Below the pieces are notes generated by a model, which made no database searches, was not told the DNA's origin, and saw only the letters and a list, made by a program, of their open reading frames with translations. Positions 28,021 through 61,404 of a stretch of DNA of 64,000 nt are shown in pieces. Source of the DNA: Beverwykella pulmonaria (lineage: Eukaryota > Ascomycota > Dothideomycetes > Pleosporales > Melanommataceae); assembly GCA_001599595.1 (NCBI GenBank), contig BCHH01000002.1:4378055-4442054 (forward strand), in the 5' to 3' direction. A program made the position numbers and the translations under genes. How positions within the stretch are numbered: position 1 is the first letter of the stretch; each line of letters opens with the position of its first letter.

Positions 28021-31000
28021 ATGGAGCCCGCCAAAATCGTCCTCGAAGTTGAAGAAGACGGCGTGACCGTCACAGCCGGATTCAAAGATGATACCTTTCG
28101 CCTCCGCACTTATCAGGCTGAAATGGTAGAGAGAAGCCTCGAAGCCAACATCATTGTCGCGATGGATACTGGTAGTGGTAAAACACATATGAACGTCCTA
28201 TCTTTCACAAGCATGTGCAATTTCTCCCCCTAACTTTCAATTCAGAGCTCTTGCTCGGACCGCAGCGGAATTGGAAATATGTGATCCTAACAAGGTATGG
28301 ATGACTCGATATTCAAGGTATCCCATTAATGTATGGATTTAACAGTTGGTAGCTTGTCTGGTTCCTTGCACCTACTGTGACTCTATGCGAGCAGCAATTC
28401 GCTGTCTTCCAAACAGCTCTCCCCGCTTATGGGAGCATACTGCTTAGTGGAAACGACGGTGTGGATCATTGGACAGATCAAAGTACCTGGGATGGTGTCC
28501 TAGAAAATGCTCGCATCGTCTTATCGACGCATGCGATACTCCGGGACTCCCTTACTCATGGGTTTGTGAAGATGGATAAGTTAGCCTTGATCATATTCGA
28601 CGAAGGTATGAGAGCCCTCGCATGATGGCATATTGCAATCTGACCCTCTCGTAGCCCATCACTGCACCCTAAATCATCCTGCCAATCAAATCATGTCCAA
28701 CTTCTATAAGCCTCGTCTCTCAGAGAAAAGCGGTTTCGGACTTCCAAGAATCCTAGGGCTTAGTGCAAGCCCGGTGATGCGAGCAAAAGCGGACCGTACT
28801 GGGCTCAAGTAAGTCGTCTTTCAGATCTAAGGCAGCTGCAGCTCATCATCCGAGGCAAATCGAGGAGAACTTGAACTCAATCACAAAGACCCCCAAGATA
28901 CATCGTTCAGAGCTCATCCGCTTTGTCCACAAACCTGAGCTTCTCAAGATTTCTTACACCATGATGGATTCTACGTATTCTCCTTTACTAGCCGCTCTCA
29001 TTCACACTCATGCTCATTACGACATCAAGACCGACCCTTGGGTACTCGGTATGATTGAGAAACAGCAGCAAGGTTTCGATTACGCGGCAAAACTACACCA
29101 AGTCGCCATGGTTAGAAAGACATACTGTGCAGAACAACTCAGAAAGTTCGCCAGAAAAGCAGAAGCAATGCACGTAGAACTAGGTCCATCAGCAACTGAA
29201 TGGTACATACATCAGTGCATCCGTAAATTCGAGGAAATGACTCGACCTTTAGACCTGCAGCTCTTCGATTGGTCTCGTGAGGAAAAAGACCATCTTCTGA
29301 AGACACTCAAGAATCTTCCCCTGTCCCAAAAAGGCTGCCCGACAATTTCTCTGGATCAACTGTCCTCAAAAGTGCAGAGATTGATTGATGTGATGGTGGC
29401 CGAAGCAGGTGCAGAAGTTACTGGGCTAGTCTTCATAGAACAGAGAGTATGGGTAGCCGCCCTAGCTGAAATCTTGTCCACGCATCCTCTGACCCGAGGT
29501 GTATTCAGCATTGGCACGTTCGTCGGAACCTCACAGTCAAGCAAGCGCAAAGCTAATATAGCGGATCTTGTTGAAATTCAAAACCACCGAGATACCTTGG
29601 ACGACTTTCGCACCGGGAAGACGAATATAATACTCACTACCAGTGTTCTCGAAGAAGGAATCGATATATCCAGCTGCCACCTTGTTATATGCTTTGAACG
29701 CCCGAAGAATCTTAAATCTTTCATCCAACGCCGTGGACGAGCCAGGAAGCAGAAGTCTAAGTACCTCATTTTCCAAGCGGAAGACTCGACTGTTCAATCT
29801 CCGGGAGCTTGGGAGTCTTTGGAGGAAGAAATGAGAGCTGCGTATTTGAATGACCTCAGACATGTACATCAGGCCGAGGAAAGAGAGCTGACTGAGGAAG
29901 TCGGAGAGATGTTTTATGGTGTGGACAGCACTAGGTGAGTATTTGTAAACATCCCTCACTTTTTTTATGCGTCGTTCCTTATTAGTAGCACTTTGACCCT
30001 CACAGCGAAGATTTCATACGGCGTGTTGTTTCGTCAGTGGTTTGGAGACTTACACTTTCTTCTCTTTACGAGGCAGATCATAGTTGTAGCACGTGTCTTC
30101 CCGGTAGCAGTGCAAATTGCACCCTAGCACATCAAACACCCCAACGCAGACCAATTTTGCCTCTTACCAGAATCATGTCTGGGTTCATGAACTGACTCTG
30201 GATCATAGGGCGCTTCTCACACTCGATAACGCGTTGCCACATCTCAGCCATTTCTGTGCCCTTCTTGGATCCGGGCCCTACATTGACTCGCGGCCTCAGT
30301 TTTCCTTTATCACTGGGGATATGCTGGGTGATGCCCGGATCACTGCAGAAGTGACGCTTCCCATTTCGGTGGACCCTGCTGCGAGGACGGCACGAGGCAC
30401 ACGAAGCTGGGTCACAGAACGCATGGCTAAAAAGGATGCTGCATTCCAAGCCTACAGAGCACTGCACTTGGCTGGATTGGTAAACGACAACTTACTACCC
30501 GCTCGTCAGGATGAGGAAGACTTGATGGATGAGTTTCAAATTCCCGATCGTACACCGTCTTTGGTCAGGGTGTCTCCAACTTTTGACCCTTGGCTAGCTG
30601 TCGCTAGTCACCTGCAACAGGACCCGCACACGTACCATCGGACTCTTCTCAAGATTCAGACTATCGAGGAGGACCCATTTTATATGGTATTACTTACGCC
30701 AAGCTTGATGCCACAGATGCCACAGATTCTCCTCCACTGGAATAAAAAGATCCAATACTCAGTTGAAAGCTCACGGCTGCCAAGAGCAATCTACACTGAA
30801 GTAGAAGTGCTGACCCTGCGATCTATCACCCGCAAGATTCTTTGCTCGATATACTTTGGACGCATGCAAGAAGAGAGATACGATTTCTTAGCGCTATTCG
30901 CCCCAAGTGATGCTCGAAATCCGATTTGGGATCATGAGAAACTTCACCACTTCGACTCTCATACGAACGGAAATCAATTGGCAATGGACCTCATTCAACA

Positions 31001-33134
31001 TCAGGATCGCAGGGCATCAGATTGGGGGCTCATATCAATCCTAGAGGAAAGCCAGAAATATATGCTCAAAAGTATCAGAAGCGAGCTGGGGATATCAGGG
31101 TATCAACTTGAGGCAATACGAGCACCAAAGCGACGCGACTTCCTGCACCAAATTCCTGAATCAAGTCAAGAGAATAATGCCTACACTCGGACAGAGTTGC
31201 TGGATGCAGCGGACTGCATTGTTGAGAACCTGCCTGCTTCCTATTCGAGATTCGCACTCTTCGTGCCATCAATACTGTGGGAGTACCAAGTATACATGAT
31301 CGCAGAAACACTTCAGACCACGCTCCTACGACCAGTCGTGTTTGAAGTGACCGATCTTCCTCTCCTCGTTCAAGCTCTCACTTCATCAGCCGCCAGCGAA
31401 GAAAACAATTACCAACGTCTCGAGTTCTTAGGCGACTGCATCTTGAAGTTCATTGCCTCGCTTCATGTCATGGCTTCCAATTTGACCTGGCCAGAGAGCT
31501 TCTTGTCCGGCAAGAAGGGAAAGATCGTCTCAAATGGTTTCCTGGCTCGTGCATCAATGAAAGCTGGTCTCGACAAGTACATCATCACTAAGAAATTCAC
31601 AGGTGCGAAATGGGCTCCTACATACGCAGGCCACGTCCTTTCTCCACAACCGCCAGACAAGGAAATTGTTACAACGCGGTCTTCAAAGTTGCTAGCCGAC
31701 GTTGTCGAGTCCCTCATCGGGGCATCGTTCGTCAAAGGCGGATTCCCTAATGCCTTCCTCTGCGTGCAAACACTCCTCACCATGGAAGAATGGACGCCTA
31801 TCCCCAAAGCCAACGAGACGCTATTTAACGCCGCTCCCAATGTGTCGTTGACCCATCTCTCAACTCTAGAGACACTCATAGGGTACACGTTTTCCAAGAA
31901 GATGCTTCTCCTCGAGGCCGTAACGCATGCTTCGTACACTGGGCCAAATGCAAATTGCTCATATGAGCGTCTGGAATTTCTTGGCGATGCTGTGTTAGAT
32001 TATATCATTTCGAGCCGATTGTTCGAGCATACACCGCCATTGAGCCACCAGAAAAGGTACGAAGGTCATGGTACACTACGAACGTGTGCCCCCCCCTACA
32101 ATCGAATCTGCTAACTGTTTGGCAGTAAGCAACCCTTTCTGTAAATTTGAAATCAAGCCACGTCTAGGATATAACATATCCGGGTGCATTCTGGTGAAGA
32201 GGTCAAAATGGTCAGGCCCGCTTGCGCTGGACAAATAGATCTGCCCGAAGCCACTGTGCCGTTCTAGCAACGATGGCTCGAGTAAGGTTCAAAAGTGACC
32301 AGATGCTTCCTGAAGGGTGCTTTAGACTCGTCATCTTACCTCCTAGCCAAGCTATTACCCCCCTCAATTGGCAAGCGCCTGCTGATCCATCTTACACTTT
32401 TAGTGCACGCCATGCGCTCCGCGATGGTAAACGCCAGCTTTCTCACCTTCCGCATGTTCGAAACTACTCTCCTAACACCCGCCCCCTGCACCCCAAACAC
32501 AACCACAGGCCCCAAAACCGTTCACCGCGCCCTCTGGCAGTACATGCGCCACAGCTCCCCTTCCATCCTCGACCCACGCGATACTGCCATCGCACAGCAC
32601 AATTCAGCCAGGAACCAGATCATCGATGCCATGAAGCACGATAATCGCTTCCCCTGGCATCTGCTCTCCCTTACCGACGCGCCCAAATTTCTATCCGATA
32701 TTGTGGAGAGTGTGATTGGGGGGATTTATATCGACAGTTGGGGGAGTATTGAGGCGTGTGAGAGGTTTGTTAGGAGGTTAGGGATTTTGGATTGTTTGGA
32801 GAGGATTTTGAGGGATGGGGTTGATTGTTTGCATCCGAAAGAGAGACTGGGACATCTGGCGGTTGAGCGGAGAGTACAATATGTCAAGATTGTGGATGAG
32901 GAGAAAGAGAAGAATGAGAGAAAGATGTACACTTGTCAGGTCAAGGTTGGAGATGTGGATATCGGCGGCCCTGTAAAGGGTATCAAAAGGCTCAACGCCG
33001 AAACTATAGCTGCATGGAAAGCATGTAGGATTCTTGAGGAGATGGCGGATGTGGATATGGAAGACATGAGTAGTGAGGACGAATGGCATGATGCCGATGA
33101 GGGGGGAGGGGTGAGGCTGGACTTGGAAGAGTAG
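28021..33134 (+). CDS. DCL2: Dicer-like protein 2, reading frame in doubt at three junctions
   Basis: Domain order is that of fungal Dicer-like 2. Helicase: [12 protein letters not shown], Walker [14 protein letters not shown] box restored by splicing 28605 to 28655, SAS motif LGLSASPV, C-terminal [16 protein letters not shown] and QRRGRARK. Next the Dicer dimerisation domain ([15 protein letters not shown]), RNase IIIa ([14 protein letters not shown] with [12 protein letters not shown]), RNase IIIb ([14 protein letters not shown] with [12 protein letters not shown]) and a dsRNA-binding-like end. Clean blocks: 28246-28294, 28353-28605, 28655-28808, 28855-29935, about 30210-32056, about 32418-33134. 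Three joints fail or are weak: the first intron near 28200, the 30 kb joint, and 32057-32417. Catalytic residues are intact. It may be a decayed allele. Dicers cut dsRNA into small RNAs for silencing and virus defence. Confidence 0.78.
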
Positions 33135-33268
33135 GTGGAGGTCTGTCTGATAGATACCATGGTCCTGTGTATTCGGGTTGGTTTAAAAAATTGTCCGTGA
33201 TCTAGGGATTGAATGAAGGAAATGCAAGCACACCGCTCCTCGATGTCGCTCTTAGGTTGGGTAATGTT
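33135..33268. other. 3' flank of the Dicer-like gene
   Basis: Short non-coding stretch leading into the terminal repeat that starts near 33269. Confidence 0.5.
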
Positions 33269-33743
33269 CGTCTCTGTGCCGCGAATAACCCAACGTGCCG
33301 AAAAACATAAGGGGTACTTTGGCTTCAGGTATGTCAGTACTTTCAAGCAAAGTAATTATCGATCTAGGCTAGTGCGATACGAACCCTCACCTTTCACGTG
33401 ACCAGCACTGTAAATTTACTCAGATCGGTAAAAGGCTTAATTACCTGTGGCTATGCGAGGTCTTGACACGCAGGCCCCTAGCCCCACAGTCTTGCAACTT
33501 TGGCCGTGCCTCCAGTTAACCAACGCGGCTCTCCAGATCCACCTACAGAAATCACCACCGCACAAGGATCTATCTTCAAGTACTCTGTCCGCATGTACCA
33601 CTCCTTGTCTAGAGGTCTCATGCCACCCCTAACGCAACGCACCTACCACTTCGGAGACTTAGATTGTGTCAGGCTTGGCTGAGTATCGTTGGAATATCGA
33701 CACACAAAAGCGAGCGAGCACCGCCAGCTGATGCATGAGAAAA

Positions 33744-34802
33744 CTACTCCGAGACACGGAAGTGTGTCTGAACGACGGGCTTCCCATCTCTATATCGATC
33801 CAAAACCTCGTTGACCTTCTCGGCATCCAAGCCAACTGCGTCTGCAACCTCGTACTTCAGTGGCACAATCTTTCCGTCTTTCACATACTCACCAATGTTC
33901 GCCCATAGCTCTTTTCCTAGGGACTGCCCATGCGGAATACCATATGTGTCCTTGACCTCATATTCGTGGTCCTTCTTCGTAACGTTAGCAGTCTCATGCG
34001 GCCGTGTTGGAAGCAGCCTGGCAACCGTCCCCTTCCTAGTAGAGGAGAGAGCATTGATACCGACATAGAGCGTCTCGGCAGGATTCACAGTGTCAAAAAC
34101 GTAGATAAGATCGTCGCCCACGGCGCTCTTGATGCGTGAGTGAACGGCTTCGTCTCCTCCATGTCGATCAAGCACTTGGGTGGCACCCCATTTCTTCAAC
34201 TCTTCCTCTTTTCCGCCGAGAACCACAATCTTCCCGATTCCGGCCAATTTTGCCAGCTGAACCGCTAATCTGCCGCAGTTGCTGCCTCCGCCGATGATCA
34301 AGAGAGTCGTGTTGGCGTAGTCAAAGGACTTTGCCTCGACAGTCCATGGAGCCGGAATGCCCAAGCCATAGCTCTCTTCGAACAGGCCGATAGCGCTCGC
34401 GCTGATATTAACTGGCAGTGTAGCGACATCGTGGTCATTGACGTTCTCGGGAACTTTTGCGGTATACGCTTCGTCTGCAAGCGCGTACTGAGCGAGCCCA
34501 TTCTGAAAATGGCCTTTCTCAAGCCAGTTTCCGTACGTGAAGACGCGGTCGCCGACTTTGAACTTCGTAATGTCGGATCCTATCTTGTCGACTACTCCGA
34601 CTATGTCGTTGGCGATTGGTGTTGGTAGATCGTCCTTGAACCAGTGGCCCCAGTCTCGGACTTTTTGGTCGTGCGGATTGAGAGCTGCGACAGTGACGCG
34701 GATGAGGAGCTGTGTCGAATCAGGCGTAGGAATTGGCCATGTGGTGGATTTGGTTAAGGGTTTACCGGCTTCGGTAACGAGAAGGGCTGTTTGTTGGGTC
34801 AT
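33744..34802 (-). CDS. Zinc-type alcohol dehydrogenase-like MDR oxidoreductase
   Basis: A single-exon gene of 352 codons plus stop, ATG at 34802. It has the medium-chain dehydrogenase/reductase fold. The N-terminal GroES-like half contains VTVAALNPHDQKVRDWG and PTPIANDIVGVVDKIG..FKVGDRVFTYGN. A Rossmann half follows with LLIIGGGSNCGRLAVQLAKLAG and the NADP-binding GGG motif. Catalytic-zinc cysteines are absent, so it belongs with the zinc-independent quinone oxidoreductase/enoyl reductase group (ToxD-like), which use NADPH to reduce alkenes or quinones. No polyketide synthase or other cluster gene is adjacent, so the substrate is unknown. It lies inside inverted terminal repeats at 33269 and 35483. 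Confidence 0.9.
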   Translation of the reverse strand: MTQQTALLVTEAGKPLTKSTTWPIPTPDSTQLLIRVTVAALNPHDQKVRDWGHWFKDDLPTPIANDIVGVVDKIGSDITKFKVGDRVFTYGNWLEKGHFQNGLAQYALADEAYTAKVPENVNDHDVATLPVNISASAIGLFEESYGLGIPAPWTVEAKSFDYANTTLLIIGGGSNCGRLAVQLAKLAGIGKIVVLGGKEEELKKWGATQVLDRHGGDEAVHSRIKSAVGDDLIYVFDTVNPAETLYVGINALSSTRKGTVARLLPTRPHETANVTKKDHEYEVKDTYGIPHGQSLGKELWANIGEYVKDGKIVPLKYEVADAVGLDAEKVNEVLDRYRDGKPVVQTHFRVSE

Positions 34803-35097
34803 ATTTGGATGTTAGGGTCGAGAATGTGAGTGAGAGAGGGCTTGTTTTTGGTGGAGATTCAAGGGTGTGTGGATGAAGAACTCTGGAGGTAAAGGTTCAC
34901 TGCTACTTTGTATTCTCTGTAAGAGTGTGACGGGATTTGTAATCTATATGCCAGATTTGTATCTTTAAGTCCGACTAAATCACCCAGGGACGAATTCGGC
35001 CGAGGGGTAAGCCAGTCACCCGTCGACCCTAGTTACTTGACTTATGTAAATATGCTAATTATCTACATGGGAGGCAGAGGAAGTAGATGTTGGTTTC

Positions 35098-35483
35098 TTA
35101 GGACGTGCGGGGTCGCTTTGTAATAGCCAGGTGGGCAATTGCATGAATTTGCGTGCGACAATAGGCACAAAACTGGTAACAAATTTTTGTCTTCGTAGCA
35201 AGGGCTCTAAGGCCCAGATCATACCCTTCTCTGTGTATTGTAAGTGGTAAAAGCTGAGCAGCGTTGCTGCTATAAAAATAAAGCAAGGCTCTGAGAAAAT
35301 CAGACAAGAAGGCGACGATGCAAATGTAAATTTAGTCTTGAATGTTCAAAGAGTAGTCACAGCACAGTATTTATATATAAATTCGGTGAAACTTAATGTG
35401 TGCGCAGCGTTATAGTCGCTTGAAGTCAAAGTACCCCTCGTAGTTTCCGGCACCGCGGGTTTTCCGGCACCCATGGCAGGACG
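35098..35483 (-). repeat. Terminal repeat, right copy of the oxidoreductase unit
   Basis: About 385 bp collinear with the right terminal repeat of the NLR unit (55975-56352). Shared blocks include TTGCGTGCGACAATAGGCAC, GTAGCAAGGGCTCTAAGG, GTGTGCGCAGCGTTATAGTC and AAAGTACCCCTCG. Many substitutions suggest an old copy. Confidence 0.7.
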
Positions 35484-36266
35484 CTCTAGGCTTTTCACCG
35501 TTACGTCTTTCCCAATGACAACATTTTCCATGCCGGCTTCCGTCCATTGATTTCTTTCCATCCTTCTAGCATTCGCAAGCACATAGTGAATCATACCAAA
35601 AACCATAATGGTACATGCGAGGCGCTCATCACGATCACGACCATAATCATGACCATGATGGAAAAGCTACCCCAGTTGGATGCTATTTCCACCGTGAACA
35701 ATCTCCCCCACATTGCCACATCGCATTCCTGATTTCCTTCTTGCATCACTACACGCGGACGCAAGTCCGACGCACGCATCCCCCGCGTCGCCGGCCCATC
35801 TCCAAACCTTCCGAGGTCGAAAATTCGAGTCTGGCCTCATGATGTGACGATGAGACGCAGCGCCTCATCATCGCAGTGTGGCTTTGCCCTGTCCGTCTCC
35901 CCCAGTCTAGCCTCTTCTTCCTCATCACGCTTTGGGTAAGTAGCGGCAAGCCAAACCTGCAAATCAGGGTACAAGCGAGGTGTGACGAAGGTGTTCGTGA
36001 TGACGTCGCTCCGCCACAACGGGCAGGCACCCGTGATCGATCGGCGCTAGGGAGCGAACAAGGAAGCGCAGGGGCGGGAACAAGGTGGGCCCAGCGCGTG
36101 AGGCTGCGTCATATCCTGCCAATGCTGGATATAAAGAGATGCTCGCGGGGCGGAAGCATTGGCTTTCCAAATCAGCGACAACGATATACCCTACTACTGG
36201 ACATAATCTTCCCAGGATCCCTCCCTCTTATCTCTTTCGCTTGTTTCCAAGATTCAATCGAAAAAG
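35484..36266. promoter_or_regulatory. Promoter region of the MARVEL gene with TATA-like box
   Basis: About 780 bp without a supported gene. TATAAA lies at 36130-36135, 132 bp before the ATG at 36267. A His/Asp-rich frame at 35615-35842 is low-complexity and is not called. Confidence 0.45.
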
Positions 36267-47300: not shown

Positions 47301-47340
47301 TTTTGTAGGTGCGTTGGAAAATTCGGTGATGGTGTTGACG

Positions 47341-47388
47341 GTTGACGTGTTGACGTGTTGACGTGTTGACGTGTTGACGTGTTGACGT
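47341..47388. repeat. 8-bp tandem repeat, six copies
   Basis: Unit GTTGACGT repeated six times, the last with one change, followed by related GCGCATTGACGC. It lies just upstream of the transposase fragment and makes the spurious NTSTRQHV peptide repeat on the reverse strand. Confidence 0.9.
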
Positions 47389-47564
47389 GTTGACGCATTG
47401 GCGCATTGACGCGTGTTTGCGAACCGAACTTTTGGTGCGTGGCTGTAGGTGGGGTACGGTGATCGGGTACGTAAGAGCTAAAGAGCTAGACTGCGATGGG
47501 CATGGGTGAGTTTCTTGAGGGTTGAGTAATTACGTCTTTGTTTGTTGTAGCCTGTGATAGAATT

Positions 47565-50175
47565 ATGGGTTATATGGGGGTTGATTTGTTAGCGAGATCA
47601 CGCGCGATAGTAAGCGAGAACACCAAACCTCCGTGATAACCTCTGGTATACTGCAAGTCTTGGCACCCCCGGAGGGCCGCTTTTTTTCTACTTTTACACT
47701 ATTTGTAAAGCAAAATAGGGGCAAAAATGCAGGCAATATGGAAGCGCATAGCTATAGCATTAACTACAAAGTACACTTTTTCTGCCTATTAAGCAGCTTG
47801 TACAGCTGATAGAGCGACAATTTAGCCCGCTGCCGAACAAGCTCTACTTCCTCCACTGCCGCGCCTGTACTAATGCCCTGTGCCTGCCGTCTCCGAACCT
47901 CGTCAATAATAACCTTCCGCCGTCCATATAGCACCTGCTCGCTATGCCTCTGACGCCAGCGCAGCCCGTACAGATCCTCTAGTCCTTGCACAGACGGGCC
48001 ACCTGCTAGGCCTACCGTCCACTCCCTCNACAGCTGCGGGACGGTTGCCACTGCGCGGGAGAGGACGTACAGCGGCGGNGGNGGTGGCGGNGGCAGTGGC
48101 GGTGGTGATAGCGGTGATGGCGGCTCCTGCAGTGAGGGAGTGGCCGCGGGAGAAGGGGAGGCTAATGCAGAGTGGAAGGACCTCACCGCTGTCGCAGCAG
48201 AAGCAGGCGTGGTAGAGCTAGAAGCTGCCATAATCGTACGGCGCGTAGGATGTAGAGTCAGCGATATGCGGCCCTCAAGCAAGTCTCCTAGCCGTATGTC
48301 AATGCTGTTGAGCCGCTCTCTCGTTTCCGCGCCCCAGTCGCTGACGTCTCGCGCAAGGCTCTGGTGCAGGATGCTAAGGCGTTCAGCAATAGCAGGCAGT
48401 GTCTTCCAGATCTGCACTTCTTCAGGCTCCTCCACGTCTAGTAGCAAGAGCTCCACGTCCTTCGCAAACGCTAGGTAGTCAGCTTGGGCGAAGATAGGGT
48501 TAGCCTAGATTAGATGCGCAGGGAACTCCTGTCTCATAATAACTAAGTCCTAAAGGAGGATAATGCGGAGCTGCTGCAGCAAACGCAGGAAGCCCTAAGC
48601 CGCGAGGTCTTCGCGGTCCTCTGTTGCCTCATCACCCTGCTGCTTCTTGTTATCCGCGTACAAGTTAAACCACGCCAGCCCTTCGTCAACAAAGGGCCAC
48701 ACAGCCTGCTCAAGTAATCACGGAGGCAGCACCTTCGCCCATGGCAGGTAGAAGCTGCCCTGCGCGGACAGGTTAAAGCCAGCCATGCTTCGCATGAACT
48801 TGCGCGGGAGGTGGGTGAGATAGCAGTTTGTTAGGGCGTTACTATTCCACCGTCCCGCACGGCAGATTTAGCCCTCACTAACGCCCTTAAGCTCAGCGTG
48901 CTTTGCTCCTTGCAACCAACCTGCGTGTGTTTTCTTTAGCAACATAACGTTTGCCCTAGCAAACATCTTGTTAATCCAGTCTAACTGCGTGTTGTACGCT
49001 ATCTTCTTTGCTGCATGCTCCCCCTTGACTAGGTGCAGGTTGTACTACAGCTCACGCCAACAGAAGCTAGGAGGCGGCTCGCCCACAACGTTCCAGCAGT
49101 AGAAGAGGTAGAAAGCGGTGTGAGCTATAGTGCAGAGCAGCAGATTTTAGTGCCTCATGACAGCTCTGTACTCTAGCCACCCTATTAGGTTTGTCTTGCT
49201 GTTGTCTATAATTATAATTATTAGGTAGCAGGGCGTCAGGCCTTTGTCTAGCAGCAGGACTGTAAAGAAGTTAGGGAGTTTAGCCCCTAGGCGCGCCTTG
49301 CTCTGCAGAAGCATGTTGTGGGCAAGCAGGAAGTTAGTGGCAGTGCGCAGGTACAGCTCTGTTGACTGCTTCCACTGCTGCTTCTTCCCCTGGCGGTAAC
49401 CCTCCCAGCAGAACTGCACAGCATTAATTATCTTTGCCTCAGTGTAGCCGTCCTGCAGCATCCCCGCGGCCCTGTCAGCAAACTCAAGCCGCCGCCACCT
49501 ATACTCAGTGCGCTTGCAAGCCCTTAGCAGGCCGTTTAGGCCCTCTCCGCGCGGGGTTAGATGCGGGTTTATGCCCTTACTCTTTTGGAAGGACCACACG
49601 TCAACAATAGCGGCTACGTACAACTTAACCGCGCTAACTCCTAGCGTCTGCTGGACAGGTTCGCCGTCTACAGTAGTACAATCCTCCTTCTTATACCGCG
49701 AGGCCCAAAGTTCCCAGTCTAGGACGCGCTCGTTCAGGAACCAGATTAGCTTATTTTCACGCACAAGCTCACCATCTTCAAATCCCTTCTCAGCGCAGAA
49801 TTCCTGCCACTCCTTCTGCTTTGGATCATACGTCCTGTTTGTGTTTTTAGGCCGCGTCTTACGCGCCTGCGCAAGCGCGCGCGCGCCCTGCGCGAAGAGC
49901 TCGACGTCAAGGGCCGCATGACGCTCGGCAGCGCTGGTAGGGGCGGGGAGCGTCGTCGTCGTCGTCGTTGTCGTTGTCGTCGTCGTCGCCGCCGCCGTCG
50001 GCGGGGTCGTCCCTGAGGCTTCCATGGCGGGAGGGGGGAGGGAGGAGAGGGGAGAGGGGGAAGGCATGGTCAACGCGGTTGCACGTGATGGCAAGCTTTA
50101 GAAGGGGGGAGAAGATAACTGGGGAATAATCGCGGCAGGGGGGGCTCTCTAATAACTGTGGGTTATATGGGGGTC
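47565..50175 (-). mobile_element. Crypton-type tyrosine-recombinase element, decayed
   Basis: The segment is bracketed by direct repeats sharing GGGTTATATGGGGGT (47567-47581 and 50159-50173). Cryptons have short direct rather than inverted repeats, so this fits. Inside, one reverse-strand frame from about 50067 to 47764 encodes a recombinase-like protein broken by stops. The right repeat lies about 90 bp from the start of the NLR unit's terminal repeat at 50264. Boundaries are inferred from the repeats alone. Confidence 0.6.
47764..50067 (-). pseudogene. Crypton recombinase with GCR1_C domain, seven in-frame stops
   Basis: One frame throughout. N-terminal part: poly-Thr linker, then NTNRTYDPKQKEWQEFC (core-binding start), VSAVKLYVAAIVDVWSFQ and LNGLLRACKRTEY. 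Middle: HAELKGVSEG, RAGRWNSNALTNCYLTHLPR, where the Tyr is the likely nucleophile. C-terminus: GCR1_C-like YGLRWRQRHSEQVLYGRRKVIIDEV and LYQLYKLLNRQKK. Stops lie at 49147-49149, 49045-49047, 48868-48870, 48718-48720, 48595-48597, 48550-48552 and 48505-48507. All are TAA, TAG or TGA replaceable by CAA, CAG or CGA with one C-to-T change. Four ambiguous bases fall at 48029, 48079, 48082 and 48091. The protein resembles the fungal Ndc10/GCR1-like Crypton proteins. It cannot be active as read. Confidence 0.75.
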
Positions 50176-50263
50176 GGGGCGCTGAATAACCGAGGTTCTC
50201 GGGGGGGGTCTGCGATAACCGAGCGTCTCGCGAGATCTCGCGACCCCTTGATAATTATGGGCA

Positions 50264-50600
50264 TCCGTCCCTGGGTCGCGCAAAACCCACCGTGCCGCAA
50301 AATATGAGGGGGACTTTGACTTTAAGCGACTATAACTCTACGCACACGTTGAGATTTATTATAATTCTGTGTTAGTTGTGTAATAGAGCTTCTTTTAAAT
50401 ATATAGGACAGCTCCCGCTTATAAATTACGTTTGCATCGTCGCCTTTGCGCCTAATTTGCAGAGAGCCTCCCTGTAGCATCACCATTAAGCTCTTACCAC
50501 TCCATAATACCGGTACTACTAAACGATGAGAGGTTATCAGCAGCCTTGTGCCTGCTGTCGCACACAAAATCATGCGAGGTCGCCACCCCAGACCCGCAGC
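50264..50600 (+). repeat. Terminal inverted repeat, left copy
   Basis: Shares with the reverse complement of 55975-56352 the blocks GGTCGCGCAAAACCCAC, AAGCGACTATAACTC, GCACACGTTGAGATTTATTA, TAATAGAGCTTCTTTTAAA, GCCTTTGCGCCTAAT and TGCCTGCTGTCGCACACAAA. By eye roughly 85% of aligned bases agree. Confidence 0.85.
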
Positions 50601-50888
50601 GTTGCGATCCCCACAACCTTGGCATGCCTCCGGTCAACAACTCAAGGTCTTGGCCGGTGCGGGTCGGCCGTCCTCCCTGCTAGCGGTAGCGACATTAAAT
50701 GCTGCATCAAGAATACTGTTAGATATCATTAATAAGCGTGCTCTCGCACGTTGATCCTTCCGCATTTGCACTGTTACCTTCTGTCTGCTGCTTTAATAAT
50801 AATTTCAAAATATCACCCAACAGCTCTGTTAAGAAAAATGATCTTTTCTAAGGAAAACAGTTATACGCATACAATAGATCAAGTTCTG
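50601..50888. other. 3' flank of the NLR gene inside the unit
   Basis: Non-coding; only weak further similarity to the region inside the right terminal repeat. Confidence 0.5.
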
Positions 50889-53800
50889 TCAAATGAAAAT
50901 CTCCACATTTTCCAACAGCCACCCGTTTAGAGCTTCTAGTGATGATGTTGTGTGCGGGTGCTTAGGGCCTAGGACGTGTTTGCGTAGTTGGAAGCATTTT
51001 TCTAGAAGTACAATAGCATCGGTGTTGCGGGATTGACCTTTCAACGTAAATGCAAGATTGTTCATGCTGGTCAGCGTAGAAGGATGCTCCTTTCCAAGCA
51101 CCCTCTTGAACGTCTCCATCACTTGCACGTCCAGCTCTTCAGCCTCCTTCCACCGGCCTTGATTCGTGTACGTCGACGCCAGGTTGCCCATGCTGGTCAG
51201 CGTGGAAGGATGCTCCTCCCCAAGCACCCTCTTGAACGTCTCCATTACTTGCATCTCTAGCTCTTCGGCCTCCTTCCACTGGCCTTGATTCCTGTACGTT
51301 GACGCTAGGTTGCCCATGCAGGTCAGCGTGTCTGGATGCTCCTCCCCAAGCACCCTCTTTCTCGTCTCCATCACTTGCACCTCCAGCTCTTCGGCCTCCT
51401 TCCACCGGCCTTGATTCCTGTACGTCGACGCCAGATTGCCCATGCTGGTCAGCGTGTCTGGATGCTCCTCCCCAAGCACCCTCTTTCTCGTCTCCATCAC
51501 TTGCACCTCCAGCTCTTCTGCCTCCTTCCACCGCCCTCGATTCCAAAATGTCGACGCCAGGTTGGCCATGCTGGCCAGCGTGTCTGGATGCTCCTCCCCA
51601 AGCACCCTCTTTCTCGTCTCCATCACTTGCACCCCCAGCTCTTCGGCCTCCTTCCACCGGCCTTGATTCCAAAACGTCGACGCCAGGTTGGCCATGTTGG
51701 TCAGCGTGTCTGGATGCTCCTCCCCAAGCACCCTCTTTCTCGTCTCCATCACTTGCACCTCCAGCTCTTCAGCCTCCTTCCACCGGCCTTGATTCGTGTA
51801 CGTCGACGCCAGGTTGCCCATGCTGGTCAGCGTGTCTGGATGCTCTTCCCCAAGCACCCTCTTGAACGTCTCCATCACTTGCACTTCCAGTTCTTTGGCC
51901 TCCTTCCACCGCCCTTGGTTCCTGTACGTTGATGCTAGGTTGGCCATGCAGGTCAGCATGTCTGGATGCTCTTCCCCAAGCACCCTCTTTCTCGTCTCCA
52001 TCACTTGCACGTCCAGCTCTTCTGCCTCCTTCCACCGGCCTTGATTCCTGTACGTCGACGCCAGGTTGCCCATGCTAGTCAGCGTGTTTGGATGCTCCTT
52101 TCCAAGCACCCTTGAACTCATCTCCATCACTTGCACCTCCAGCTCTTCGGCCTCCTTCCACTGACCCTGATTCCTGTACGTTGACGCCAGGTTGCCAATG
52201 CTAAGAAGCGTGGAAGGATGCTCCTCCCCAAGCACCCTCTTTCTTGTCTCCATCACTTGCACAAACAGCTCTTTGGCCTCCTTCCACCGCCCTTGATTCC
52301 ANNNNNNNNNNNNNNNNNNNNNNNNNNNNNNNNNNNNNNNNNNNNNNNNNNNNNNNNNNNNNNNNNNNNNNNNNNNNNNNNNNNNNNNNNNNNNNNNNNN
52401 NNNNNNNNNNNNNNNNNNNNNNNNNNNNNNNNNNNNNNNNNNNNNNNNNNNNNNNNNNNNNNNNNNNNNNNNNNNNNNNNNNNNNNNNNNNNNNNNNNNN
52501 NNNNNNNNNNNNNNNNNNNNNNNNNNNNNNNNNNNNNNNNNNNNNNNNNNNNNNNNNNNNNNNNNNNNNNNNNNNNNNNNNNNNNNNNNNNNNNNNNNNN
52601 NNNNNNNNNNNNNNNNNNNNNNNNNNNNNNNNNNNNNNNNNNNNNNNNNNNNNNNNNNNNNNNNNNNNNNNNNNNNNTGTACGTCGACGCCAGGTTGCCC
52701 ATGCTGGTCAGCGTGGAAGGATGCTCCTCCCCAAGCACCCTCTTGAACGTCTCCATCACTTGCACCTCTAGCTCTTTGGCCTCCTTCCACCGCCCTTGGT
52801 TTGTGTACGTTGACGCCAGGTTGCCCATGCAGGTCAGCGTGTCTGGATGCTCCTCCCCAAGCACCCTCTTTCTCGTCTCCATCACTTGCACAAACAACTC
52901 TGCAGCCTCCTTCCACTGACCTTGATTTGTGTACGTCGACGCCAGGTTGGCCATGCTAGTCAGCGTGGAAGGATGCTCCTCCCTAAGCACCCTCTTTCTT
53001 GTCTCCATTACTTGCACCTCCAGCTCTTCAGCCTCCTTCCACCGGCCTTGATTCGTGTACGTCGACGCCAGGTTGGCCATGCTGGTCAGCGTGTCTGGAT
53101 GCTCCTCCCCAAGCACCCTCTTTCTCGTCTCCACCACTTGCACCTCCAGCTCTTCGGCCTCCTTCCACTGGCCTTGATTCCTGTACGTCAACGCCAGGTT
53201 GCCTATGCTGAGAAGCGTGGAAGGATGCTCTTCCCCAAGCACCCTCTTTCTTGTCTCCATCACTTGCATAAACAGCTCTTCAGCCTCCTTCCACCGCCCG
53301 TCACAATGCAATGCCATGGCACATTTCCATACTAGATTTGTCCTAGCCTCGTTCTCTTGTCTAGTGAGTTTAAATGATAGAGCAAACTTAGCATGCGGTA
53401 GTAATCGTCTCCACTTACTTCTGCTCCCATGATTATGGTCTGGGAACACCTCAAGCAGACGTATAATAGCTACTTGAGTCTGCTGACTCATTAATCCCTC
53501 TTCTTCAAGCCATTTGCGTGCTGAGACATGTACTAGCCGATGAAGGTCAAGCGCTGATTCAGCTGTTCGTTTGGTGACAAGTGAGTAAGCGTTGAGGGTT
53601 CCTACCGCATGTATTCCTTGCTCACGCGGCGAGGCCACTGGGAGAAGAGCAAGCGGGACGTCGTTTTGGTCTACACACGCCATAAAGAGTAAATACTCAG
53701 CTGCCAAATTATTATAGCGACGAATCTGCTCGAACGAAATAAGCCAGGTTGCAGCTATCACGCTCTCTGGTTCTCGACGAAGAGCTCCAGCCAACCCTTT

Positions 53801-55274
53801 CTTTTTCTCAGCTAGTAGTGAGAGATATTCCTGAAGGGTTATCTTGTTGACATTGACGTAGGCTGCTGCTTGCACAATAGCTAGAGGGAGGTACGCTAGC
53901 TCTCTAAGCAAGAGGTCTGCCTTCTCTTGCTGGTTCGCCGGGTTGACCAAACACATTTCTAGCATTCTTTGAGCCGTTTCCTGTTCCATCTCTAGCAACT
54001 CTACAATATTTTGTGGTGCCAGTTTCGCGGCCACCTTCTTGTCAGTCGTTGTGAAGACTATAGCCCCCTGCTTAGAGCTTGGTAGGGACTCTATTAGGCC
54101 AGCTGTTTCTAGCCCAGCTTCGCCCGCGTTGTCGAAAATGAGGAGCCACTGCCCTGCACTCTCGTCGCTTAAGTGGAGTTGTACCAGCTTTCTAACATCT
54201 GCCTTCTTATTATCCCAGCCAAGAATATTAAGCCGTCGGGCAATGTGCGCATATGATTGATAGAGGCTCCACTTATCGCTTGCAGTTATCCAGAACACTG
54301 AGCAGTTCTTATACTCTTGTCTAATTCTGTACGCCAACTCTAGTGCGAGCTGCGTTTTGCCTATTCCACCTAAGCCTGTAATTACGACCTTTGTAGTTGT
54401 TGCTCTAACAAAGAGCTTTCCTTTTAGCTTAGCAAGTTGCAACTCACGACCAATAAATCGAGCGTTTTGGTCAAATGGTACAATAAACAGCGTGGTATTA
54501 GCTGCAGGCTACACTTTAGTACTTATGCGACATAGTTGTGTAAGCAGTACCTTTTTCTATTTCCTCCTGGAGTCGCTCTAGTGCTCTCTCCTTTCCTTCG
54601 CCGTATCTAAACTCCATAGACACACTGAAAATTCCAATTAAAGAATACGCCATGTCTTCTTCTTGTGTTGCCTGGCGGCCCGCCATCCACGCCATTCGCT
54701 CAGGAACGCTAAATTCGTTTAGAGGATCGCCCCGTAACGCTGTAACTGGGATGCGAGTAATTTCGTGGATTAGCTGCTCCAGGGAGTCTTTGTCCCCAAG
54801 TCGCTGACGACTAGAGGAAAAGAAGTCAATTGTTGCTGGAGCTAGGAGTTCTTGAAGTGTCCAGCCTCGAGTAAACCATCTGCTCGTTCGAAAAGCTGCT
54901 TCCCATGCACTCTGGTGCCGCTGTGCATCTACCGTGTGTGTTGAGACATCTGAGAGGAAAGCGTAGCATCTTGCCGCATCCTTATACCACTGGAACATGG
55001 AGTTTATTGCGTTTGACAGCTCACGGAGGTTCCATTTGTCGATACAACAGGTGTCGACCCAGAAGTACTGTACACGGTCACGAGCAGTTTGTTCACCGCA
55101 GAACAGAATCTTTTCATAGCCAGCCTTGTCTTTCCCAGTGCCATTCACCAGATCTTCAAAGAGGAACTCGTCATCTCCCCATGTGTGGGAAAGAATAGCA
55201 TATGGAGGGATTGTTTTCTGGCTGAAATACGTTGAGGCGAGTCGCCCAGAACCATCAAAGTAAAGGAGTCGCAT
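50889..55274 (-). CDS. HET - NB-ARC - TPR NLR (incompatibility-type receptor)
   Basis: Exon 1 (54551-55274) and exon 2 (50889-54501) join in frame (phase 1). Exon 1 encodes a HET domain: YAILSHTWGDDEFLFEDL, YFWVDTCCIDK, SRWFTRGWTLQELLAP. Exon 2 begins with the NB-ARC NTPase: Walker A GLGGIGKTQLA, Walker B WLLIFDNA, FTTTD, LAYLPLAIVQAAAYV. It then has at least fifteen 42-residue TPRs of the type NQGRWKEAEELEVQVMETRK..GEEHPDTLTSMANLAST. A 376-base run of N interrupts the repeats (52302-52677). HET is the death-inducing domain of fungal heterokaryon incompatibility and NB-ARC the oligomerising switch. TPRs are probably the sensor. The whole gene lies inside inverted terminal repeats. Confidence 0.92.
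50985..53305 (-). repeat. 126-bp TPR-coding tandem repeats with high identity
   Basis: Fifteen visible units (five upstream, ten downstream of the gap on the coding strand) plus a degenerate last one. Units differ at few codons, for instance TRK or TFK, DT or ST, RW or QW, YRN or YTN or FWN. The rest are almost identical at the DNA level. Confidence 0.9.
52302..52677. other. Assembly gap (376 N)
   Basis: The gap falls inside the TPR repeat array. The reading frames on the two sides are not in register across 376 bases, so the gap length is not the true length. Confidence 1.
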
Positions 55275-55974
55275 CACAACGACATTGCAAGTGAGCAGAC
55301 AATTTGCAGGCAATTCGGAGGGGTGACCACAGGATTGCAGGGGAGATAGTAGCGCTCTATGTATTATAATTGTGGGCTGTGTAAGGGCTGTGTGAAGGCA
55401 GTGCAAAGATATTTGACAAGCTCAGCCGCATCATCACGTGCAACAGAAGGAGAGAAGCGAATGGATCCAAACTACCGGTACAAACGAAGCCAAGAAATGA
55501 AGAAGATGTAGCGAAGGTAAATACCTAACTACTAGTAGCAAGAAGGTTGGCCTCCTTGTATACTTACATACTTACATTTATTTTATTAATAGAAAAGTGC
55601 TTTAAGCTACAGTTGCAGATCCTTGGCGGTTACTTCCTGCTACAGTAATGTTGCTCGAAGCTCTAAATAGGTTGCAATTCGAGAAGTTGGAGAGGGGAAT
55701 CTGATGCTGCTTTTATTGTTTAAGGCATAAAGCTGCTGTATGTAAAAAGTATAGGCTAGGCTGCACGTGCTGAGTGAGCAGGCTGACTAATAATACTTGA
55801 CAATGATAAGAGTAACTTGCCACTAGATTTCGCCACTATTGACAAGAACCTTGTGAGGTGGCGAATTCTGTAGGTCTTTTCAGAGCGAGTGGGGTTCGCA
55901 AGGCTGCGGCTGAGGTCTGCCCGCCCGCCAAGGCTCAGTATGTAGTTGGTTTGAACAGAAGTACTAACCGGGGT
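55275..55974. promoter_or_regulatory. Upstream region of the NLR gene
   Basis: About 700 bp between the NLR start and the right terminal repeat. It should hold the promoter. AT-rich around 55540-55740. No second gene is seen. Confidence 0.4.
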
Positions 55975-56352
55975 AGCGGCCTCGCATAATTTTGTGTGCG
56001 ACAGCAGGCACAAGACGGTTAACTTCTCAGCATTGTAGCAAGATTCTAAGGCTTAATAACACCATTTATTAGTATTATAGAGCAGTAAGAGCTTGATAGT
56101 AGTGCTACCGGTATAGTGAAGGAACTCTGTCACATTATAAAAGGAGGCTCTCTGCAGATTAGGCGCAAAGGCAATAATACAAACGTAACTTATAGGCGTG
56201 AGCTGTCCTATATGTTTAAAAGAAGCTCTATTACACGACTCATAGAGAATTATAATAAATCTCAACGTGTGCGCAGAGTTATAGTCGCTTAAAATCAAAG
56301 TACCCCTCGTATTTTGCGGCACAGTGGGTTTTGCGCGACCTAGGGACGGACG
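55975..56352 (-). repeat. Terminal inverted repeat, right copy
   Basis: Inverted partner of 50264-50600, ending TGCGCGACCTAGGGACGGAC. Also collinear with 35098-35483. Confidence 0.85.
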
Positions 56353-56970
56353 TTAGGTAGATTTTAATGTACTACTTATTATCGCGGAGATACTGTAAGA
56401 GTGATAGGAGCATGTGTCTACTTATTCACGGCGATACCAGTACATTCACCTAATGTCATCCATTATATAGCGCCGAACAATGTCGATGTTTAGAAGCTCT
56501 GCAACGTAATAAATGAAGACAGGTTTGCAAGGTCAGTGAAGAAACTGCAGACGTGAGTCTACAGGCCTGGTATTTTGGGGAATGAAGTGCTAACAAGATT
56601 ATAGGACGACTTTGGCAAGGTGTGCGTTGATCTACTGGAGGTTGAAGATGTTGAAGGGTGCATGAGATTGGCTGCTGAGCTTGAGTGAGGCATTAGTGTT
56701 TTGTCCCTTTTTTGGATATAACTCTGGCAGGAGTTGGCTACAGGAAGGAACGTGGCTATGATTTTCTTCTATAGGCACTCATGTACTACCACGAAGAAGT
56801 TTACACGTGGAACCAAAAGTTGATCTGATCGACAGGAAGTGGAGGAAGTAGATCGTGATCAGAGACGTTTACAGCCTCGAGACTTCGAATTCCAGCCTTG
56901 GACAATCAGCAAGCTCTCTTCCTCGAACTCACAGCCCTGCCATGATCCCAACGAAAAGCTAATACCATTT

Positions 56971-59952: not shown

Positions 59953-61404
59953 TCAATATTCTCCAGCAAGTCTCTGCAATACCAACCCCATAAAGCCACC
60001 CCAGAACCCCTCACTCCCATCATCCCTCCCATACCTAATCACATTCCGCCAAAGCCTCAGCGCCCGAAAAATGCCACTTACAGTCCTTGTCTCGCAGAGG
60101 CTAAAGAGACCAGTCTCTGGTCCCAGGATATGCACCTCTTCGCTCTCTTCCAACGCCATGTACGCAAAGTAAACGCGCATCTCGTGTCCGACAATGGTGA
60201 AGCAGGGCTCCACCAGACCGCTCTTGTCTACCTGTCCCACATGCTGCGCGAGCTGCAACTTCTTTCGCAGGCTGGCTGCAATCCATATGCTAAGTTGGTA
60301 TTCGGCTTCTGTGTAATCGCCGGTGGAGGGCTTGACCTCGACGCAAGAGAAGAGGGCAGTCGTCCTCGTGAAGGCATCGGTCATATGGCTTACAACGTGA
60401 TTGTCCGCGATCCTCAGGCGGCTGTATAGACCTTCGAAACCGGGGGATGGCATGTGGGAGAAGGAGAGCGTGAAGTCAGCTTTGCGATCGAGGAGGCGGG
60501 GTTTTCCAGAGACGTCGGGTAGGGAGGAGAGGAATTCACTGGCGATGGCTTGGGACTGTCTGCTGGGAGATCAGCATGGGGTGCCGCTAATGAGACGGAG
60601 GGTTACATACACACTCTGAAGCCAGAATTTCTCTTCCCCTTCCAAGTCCATCGCGAGCTTCACCAGTGGCTGAATCACGTCCATGCACCACGCGTTCTCA
60701 TCGCGACCCCTTGACTTGCACACTCGCGCGTTCAGCCAAATCTCTTTCACCTTCCGCAGCAAATACTCTAGTCTGTCATGCTCCTCGCCGCCAATGTCGG
60801 GGTCCGAGAGGCTTTGTGCTGTGATTTCGTCCCAGGCATGACGCTCAATTCTTTGGTATCCAAAGTCTGGATCACCCTCTATTGGCTTTCGCAGCCAGCC
60901 GGGTATCCAGCCTCTATCCAGGCCGTCTTCCAGCCGTTCCATGGTATTCATTACTCTCCATGGCGGTGGTACCTTTAGGCCTGAGCTCGGTTCCGTAATC
61001 GTCGGAGGGGATGCGGAAGCCAGTGCAGCGATATTGTCGCGCGATGGGCTGTTCACTCGACGAGGGCTCTTAGTGCCGACTTGACTCCTAGGCGGACTGA
61101 AGGTATTCCTTTCACTGAGCACTAGTACGCTCATAGTCGAGGCCGCTCCGACAACCGATACGCTGTGGGTAGGCAGGACTCTGGTGTCGTTGTCGCATCT
61201 CGGACGCTTAGGGCTGGTCGGCATTGTGCAGATAGAGAGCCCAGAGGTTTTCCGCTTCAGCGACTGGTGGCTCTCAGGTGTTAACGGTGGGGAGAGAAAG
61301 TCCGTATGGGTTGGAGCCAGTATGGAGAGTTGCTGGATCCAACTTTCCACTTGTGCTGTCTTTGCAGCGGCAATTGAGGGTGACAATGGTGGTGTTATGG
61401 ACAT
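59953..61404 (-). CDS. PD-(D/E)XK nuclease-like fungal protein
   Basis: Exons 59953-60555 and 60613-61404 give 464 codons plus stop, ATG at 61404. The disordered N-terminal third (SPPLTPESHQSLKRK, SPKRPRCDND) carries basic nuclear-localisation-like patches. The conserved part has LEYLLRKVKEIWLNARVC, NAWCMDVIQPLVKLAM and FWLQS. After the intron, LLDRKADFTLSF and FSCVEVKP..TEAEYQLSIWIAA supply Asp and the E-x-K pair of a PD-(D/E)XK core. This is the PDDEXK-like family common in plant-associated and other filamentous ascomycetes. Its role is unknown; nuclease activity is an inference from the motif. The intron acceptor at 60556 gives the in-frame LQS-SQAIASEFL junction. Confidence 0.82.

Follow-up and report, generated by a model that had tools for sequence, protein, structure and literature searches.

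The closest described precedent for the locus presented here is ToxTA (formerly ToxhAT), found in Bipolaris, Pyrenophora and Parastagonospora, a 14-kb non-autonomous element with terminal inverted repeats, a TA duplication, a cargo gene and no proven transposase of its own (PMC12506042). Inverted-repeat elements holding captured sequence are also described as Pack-TYPE and Pack-MULE (PMC8277862), and Starships are mobile elements of Pezizomycotina which can hold genes of NOD-like receptors (NLRs) (PMC12134995). The HNWD/NWD genes of Podospora anserina and other fungal NLRs combine a HET or other N-terminal domain with NACHT and highly alike repeats (PMC12222747, PMC1805685). A word search of two HNWD/NWD papers (PMC1805685, PMC2873952) had no hit for 'inverted repeat' or 'flank'; a transposon relic beside one pseudogene is mentioned in PMC1805685. 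Among the matches listed from one open-access literature collection, no title or abstract opening dealt with fungal NLRs inside inverted-repeat transposons. Such an arrangement, an NLR gene between long inverted repeats, is described here from the genome of Beverwykella pulmonaria (a single assembly of 45.6 Mb in 31 contigs). The unit lies in a stretch of 64,000 nucleotides, positions 4378055–4442054 of contig C2, hereafter the window; other contigs and arm loci are given as C and L numbers, respectively.

The window unit is interpreted, with a probability of about 0.7, as a copy of a multi-copy, non-autonomous, TA-ended inverted-repeat transposon family with a cargo biased toward NLR and HET genes. 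Each unit would be bounded by long terminal inverted repeats (arms) ending at TA and would presumably depend for its movement on a TA-targeting (Tc1/mariner-like) transposase acting in trans. The units would carry host genes with a strong bias to NLR and HET genes, most commonly with one such gene in fixed orientation at a set distance inside the 5' arm, and the cargo would be exchanged between arm lineages.

A preliminary description, made from the letters of the window, had reported inverted copies around a single gene. The alignment bore this out with an outer block of 213 nt at 90% identity (50264–50476 versus 56138–56350) and, farther in, another 45 nt at 93% (50545–50589 versus 55970–56014); over the outermost 208 bp the identity was 91%. 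A profile put the two arms at 50263–50591 and 55938–56353. The unit measures 6.1 kb, and the only gene between its arms is encoded on the minus strand (Table 1). Domain scanning recovered HET (6.8e-13), NB-ARC (8.3e-10) and a TPR array in the order typical of NLRs; with HET, nucleotide-binding and repeat domains in this order, the gene is a HET-type fungal NLR. The same description had called the receptor full: its domains and their order were recovered, but its intactness cannot be asserted, since the TPR array contains a run of 376 N across which the open frames differ. The TPR unit consists of 42 aa (126 bp). In the first repeat family, a 300-nt piece was present in 13 copies, 10 of them 86–94% identical to the reference. 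At the protein level, 13 clean units varied mostly at positions 19, 21, 28, 37 and 40. In this respect, the array resembles the highly conserved repeats of other fungal NLRs. N tracts are frequent in short-read assemblies of the Podospora HNWD genes (PMC12222747), which makes a gap in the repeats the likely origin of the N run in the window. Runs of N are also present inside the units L017, L035 and L036, lying, as in the window, in or near repeat arrays, which is expected of collapsed, highly alike repeats.

Table 1. Positions of the annotated features within the window.
Feature	Position	Strand	Basis and remarks
Left (3') arm of the terminal inverted repeat	50262..50591	+	Alignment, profile; terminal TAACG replaced where the arm meets the Crypton-like repeat
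Right (5') arm of the terminal inverted repeat	55938..56353	-	Alignment, profile; tip intact, GGACGT then TA on the + strand
NLR exon 1, HET domain	54551..55274	-	Manual reading and domain scan; start codon placed at 55274
NLR intron, 49 bp	54502..54550	-	Manual reading of the letters, no gene predictor; GT-AG, frame-keeping
NLR exon 2, NB-ARC then TPR	50889..54501	-	Domain scan, repeat analysis; 3' limit approximately 50889; N run inside
N run (376 N) within the TPR array	52302..52677		Sequence; probable assembly gap
Crypton-like repeat adjoining the left arm	47561..50261	-	AATTATGGG at both ends; weak NDC10_II match under the curated cut-off
Second, degenerate arm pair of the same family	33264..35484		Local match and profile; approximately 15 kb from the NLR unit
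Zinc-binding alcohol dehydrogenase open reading frame within the degenerate pair	33747-34811	-	Pfam scan

Genome searches with the two window arms gave 48 and 42 matching places, which merged into 54 arms. A core arm pattern of 34 places matched the genome 47 times, and the reversed pattern used as a control gave 0 matches. Since the same arm recurs dozens of times, the match between the two window arms is not due to chance. Another 16 arms were added through the 34-place pattern, a search with an arm of the HET unit L017 and one local match, resulting in a set of 70 arms of about 200–670 bp on 16 contigs. In this set, 26 arms form 13 facing pairs under 15 kb, which span 2.2–12.9 kb on seven contigs (a fourteenth row shares an arm with another one and is not counted); a local profile adds the pairs L029 and L032, making 15. 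The two arms of a pair were 81–93% identical in 6 of 8 facing pairs with alignments of at least 190 nt, the other two being L010 (78%) and L029 (70%). The units thereby possess the terminal inverted repeats of a Tc1/mariner-type non-autonomous element. The arm tip is well defined: 24 of 27 aligned ends begin with TA, followed by ACG in 18 of these 24, while seven other distinct ends, excluded from the alignment as truncated or degenerate, have TA in one case. Position -1, just outside the TA, is C or G in 18 of 23 anchored ends, no other outer position being striking. In the four pairs with both tips intact (L009, L010, L017 and L029), TA is found on either side without exception. Two further features of the family were noted. 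At L023 (4114–6602), two arms that share 85% identity over 302 nt are arranged back to back; one has a NACHT match on its inner side, the other has matches to both HET and NACHT. Another dispersed repeat directly adjoins the arms of L013 and L014 and has probably truncated both.

The content of the units is diverse. L013 holds a HET-NACHT gene followed by a WD40 open reading frame (ORF), L017 a HET gene with ankyrin repeats, L035 a HET relative with a NACHT match and L027 NACHT-type domains, whereas the HET proteins of L029 and L037 are of another kind, with a full-length Pfam match. TPR with kinase was found at L032 and L019 and ankyrin ORFs at L014 and L033; L009 has no long frame, only a TPR fragment 67% identical to that of the window. 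Several arm-adjacent ORFs had no Pfam match, and the esterase, hydrolase and DUF3292 ORFs beside arms look like ordinary neighbours. Overall, a HET or NACHT match is present in 8 of the 15 pairs (window, L013, L015/L016, L017, L027, L029, L035 and C10:858785). The others include the TPR-kinase pair L032, the ankyrin pair L014, the degenerate pair with the dehydrogenase and the TPR remnant L009; nothing was recognised in the few ORFs scanned at L010 and L011/L012, and the pair C3:3642178-3655108 was left out of the cargo reading. For the 13 facing pairs alone, the count is 8, or strictly 7, with C3:2648877-2651873 dropped because its HET match lies outside. Host genes thus stand between inverted repeats and differ among copies, as in Pack-TYPE elements. 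Two of the checks proposed in the preliminary description were positive: the terminal repeats recur as a dispersed family of 70 arms with a defined tip, and the same ends enclose different cargo (HET-NACHT-WD40, HET-ankyrin, HET-NB-ARC-TPR, NACHT, other HET and non-immune genes). Regarding the gene type itself, a protein search with the L034 gene gave its best named relatives in fungi such as Zopfia, Patellaria and Lepidopterella (Dothideomycetes), with 83% identity in Zopfia rhizophila. NLR genes of this type are by this search widespread and hence ordinary; it is their enclosure by arms that stands out.

Receptor genes are concentrated on one side of the arms. Within 8 kb, a HET or NACHT match lies on the inner side of 29 of 70 arms and on the outer side of 5, compared with a random expectation of 4.4; the outer side, serving as an internal control, is thus at background level. 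The strict inner-side count is 27 of 70, after dropping C3:1407817 and C3:2651873, where the HET match lies beyond the partner or a neighbouring arm. Among discordant arms, 26 have matches inside only and 2 outside only (p = 3e-6), or strictly 24 and 2 (p = 1e-5). When the set is restricted to the 54 arms recovered with the two window arms, the counts are 23 inside versus 4 outside (discordant, 20 versus 1). The HET and NACHT lists are lower bounds and partly overlap, with 371 entries in the side test and 65 HET matches in the spacing test. In the latter, which covered a range of 500–1200 bp, a window-like HET match begins 618–1086 bp inside 9 of the 70 arms, on the same strand. About 0.035 such arms were expected, and the maximum in 2000 permutations was 2. 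Distances were taken from the outer edge of the arm match, and some arms are truncated.

The near-constant distance of the 5' arm upstream of the HET match, and the likeness of the two arms within a unit, would also suit arms that are part of the receptor locus, acting as a shared promoter or terminator or as recombination sites which aid NLR repeat exchange or inversion. We regard this as quite improbable. Arms of the family are also found beside an alcohol dehydrogenase, a TPR-kinase, HET proteins of a different type and an ankyrin ORF, an inverted copy is present at the 3' side too, and 8 of the 18 rows of this genome in the HET tree have no detected enclosing arm.

Comparison of the units with each other showed that L013 and L035, located on different contigs, resemble each other in blocks that extend across both arms and the gene between them. 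For L013, L017 and L035, the best match of all six arms was the same-side arm, albeit with small margins (201 shared columns). Between L017 and L035, homology of the 3' arm ends at the tip. When 26 flanks were compared, matches appeared only to the right of L013, L014 and L004, through another repeat; related units thus lie at non-matching flanks. The arm and HET trees are in conflict. In the arm tree, both window arms group with L015, L016 and L037 (99/99), whereas in the HET tree, the window groups with L034 (98/96). Constrained trees uniting the arms of the window and L034 (p 0.016), the HETs of the window and L015 (p 0.003) and the HETs of L013, L017 and L035 (p 0.0025) were rejected; these p values are somewhat optimistic because the groups were named after the trees had been seen. 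From this conflict, the cargo seems to have been exchanged between arm lineages, which is its simplest reading.

The left end of the window unit is complicated by the Crypton-like repeat (Table 1). A 3.7-kb query found six near-full copies elsewhere in the genome at 88–98% identity and one partial copy. In addition, the 166 bp beside the left arm recur at other genome places, and this arm has no TAACG tip. The repeat is a separate 2.7-kb element, probably inserted at or into the left tip, and 'Crypton-like' is a provisional name. As this repeat adjoins the arm, the sequence now beside the arm is not the original flank, which would account for the lack of a target-site duplication in the preliminary description. 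One copy of the repeat (C2:1997522-2000197) stops 185 bp from the HET match C2:2000382. To the left of the repeat in the window, at 47330–47400, a TTGACGTG-like unit forms a short tandem array. Possible tyrosine-recombinase sequences nearby (the Crypton-like repeat and a DUF3435 fragment in L025), together with the ability of Starships to carry NLRs (PMC12134995), could mean that a larger element, for instance a Starship, carries the unit as cargo or left it as debris, and that the arms are internal to this element. This is very improbable given the size of the paired units and their spread over seven contigs, the compared flanks, which are unlike except for one other repeat, and the separate nature of the Crypton-like repeat.

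Several observations weigh against a transposon family. No partner within 15 kb was found for 44 of the 70 arms. The preliminary description had named unpaired solo copies of an unrelated element as one of the outcomes that would refute it, yet several of the unpaired arms also face NLR or HET genes. In a larger HET tree, the armed genes are interspersed with eight control relatives for which no enclosing arm was detected (one control, L044, is 3 kb outside an arm pair) and with genes of other species. Both facts, along with the dispersed repeat adjoining L013 and L014, favour ordinary gene or segmental duplication as the cause of NLR and HET spread, with the arms being independent remnants similar to miniature inverted-repeat transposable elements (MITEs), inserted nearby or co-duplicated. 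We consider this unlikely, since the HET/NACHT enrichment is restricted to the inner side, the spacing and orientation of HET are fixed, the two arms of a unit are mostly closely related and the L017/L035 homology ends at the 3'-arm tip between unlike flanks. Moreover, the tree conflict could have been caused by gene conversion between arms, and the TA at the tips may be either a target duplication or the repeat's own terminal TA. A genome search with the joined flanks of the window unit gave no match reaching across the junction by more than 3 nt, and hence no empty site, although the left half of this query is a dispersed repeat.

The search for a transposase adds to these points. None was recognised among 29 ORFs scanned with Pfam, the all-against-all comparison of arm-adjacent ORFs revealed no recurring resident gene, and the Mutator-like domain PF10551 had 0 matches genome-wide. 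Five of 204 DDE_1/DDE_3 places (some neighbouring fragments excluded) lie inside arms and one outside within 13 kb, where 4.1 were expected per side, so the number gives no evidence for a partner transposase. All five inside matches are Tc1/pogo-type domain matches in unpaired arms (C13:1030342, C17:507737, C3:454388, C7:1589880 and C7:2485588), and a partner may be among them. The best lead, as a candidate autonomous partner, is the DDE_1 match at C17:507737, which lies 1.5 kb inside its arm in a 578-aa frame containing one stop; the same unpaired arm (C17:506229-510908) has a HET match on its inner side as well. The preliminary description had proposed a non-autonomous unit mobilised in trans. 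Dispersed ends with a defined tip, varied cargo, non-matching flanks and TA in four of four pairs speak for this proposal, but the scanned ORFs supply no transposase for it.

Taken together, these results are most consistent with transposition as the cause of the dispersal of the units, probably by mobilisation in trans and with the TA as a putative target-site duplication. A more far-reaching version, in which the family is specialised in immune receptors, repeatedly acquiring, swapping and dispersing NLR and HET genes with its 5' arm at a fixed upstream distance, so that the recognition repertoire would be partly built and reshuffled by transposition, can be put forward only tentatively. If true, a transposon family selectively enclosing NLR and HET genes with several architectures would be a concrete and testable mechanism for variation in allorecognition, naming the ends to seek in other isolates.

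Sequence decay was also considered. The TpA/ApT index of repeat-induced point mutation (RIP) ranged from 1.06 to 1.55 over six arms, against 0.98 for the window unit and 0.76 for the window as a whole. In every whole unit listed, the second index exceeded 1, and strong RIP was rejected as an explanation on this basis. Elsewhere in the window, helicase C-terminal, Dicer dimerisation and RNase III domains extend over two neighbouring ORFs at 28778–32114, constituting a Dicer-like gene, and an ORF at 60571–61425 matches a PD-(D/E)XK nuclease (PDDEXK_12).

Among known systems, three identities were rejected. MITEs are short and non-coding, under about 0.8 kb, in comparison with 2.2–12.9 kb for the paired units. 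Mutator-like elements make target duplications of 8–11 bp, and apart from the missing PF10551, no longer duplication was visible at the four pairs with intact tips. As for Starships, no DUF3435 was found in the ORFs of the 6.1-kb window unit; Starships are giant and encode a DUF3435 captain at their 5' edge, in contrast to the small units here, and are not known to have long inverted repeats. Unlike Pack-TYPE and Pack-MULE elements, the units often carry long receptor genes of one functional class and have a TA end signature, in a genome devoid of PF10551 matches. With the HNWD/NWD family, the window gene type shares the N-terminal HET domain and highly alike repeats. Likeness is greatest to ToxTA, which, by its published description, also has inverted repeats, TA ends, cargo and no proven transposase of its own. 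Compared by description, ToxTA is a single copy with 74-bp repeats and an effector gene, whereas the family here comprises dozens of arms of about 200–670 bp with an NLR/HET bias. The family thus differs from its nearest precedent in copy number, arm length and NLR/HET bias, its transposition being inferred.

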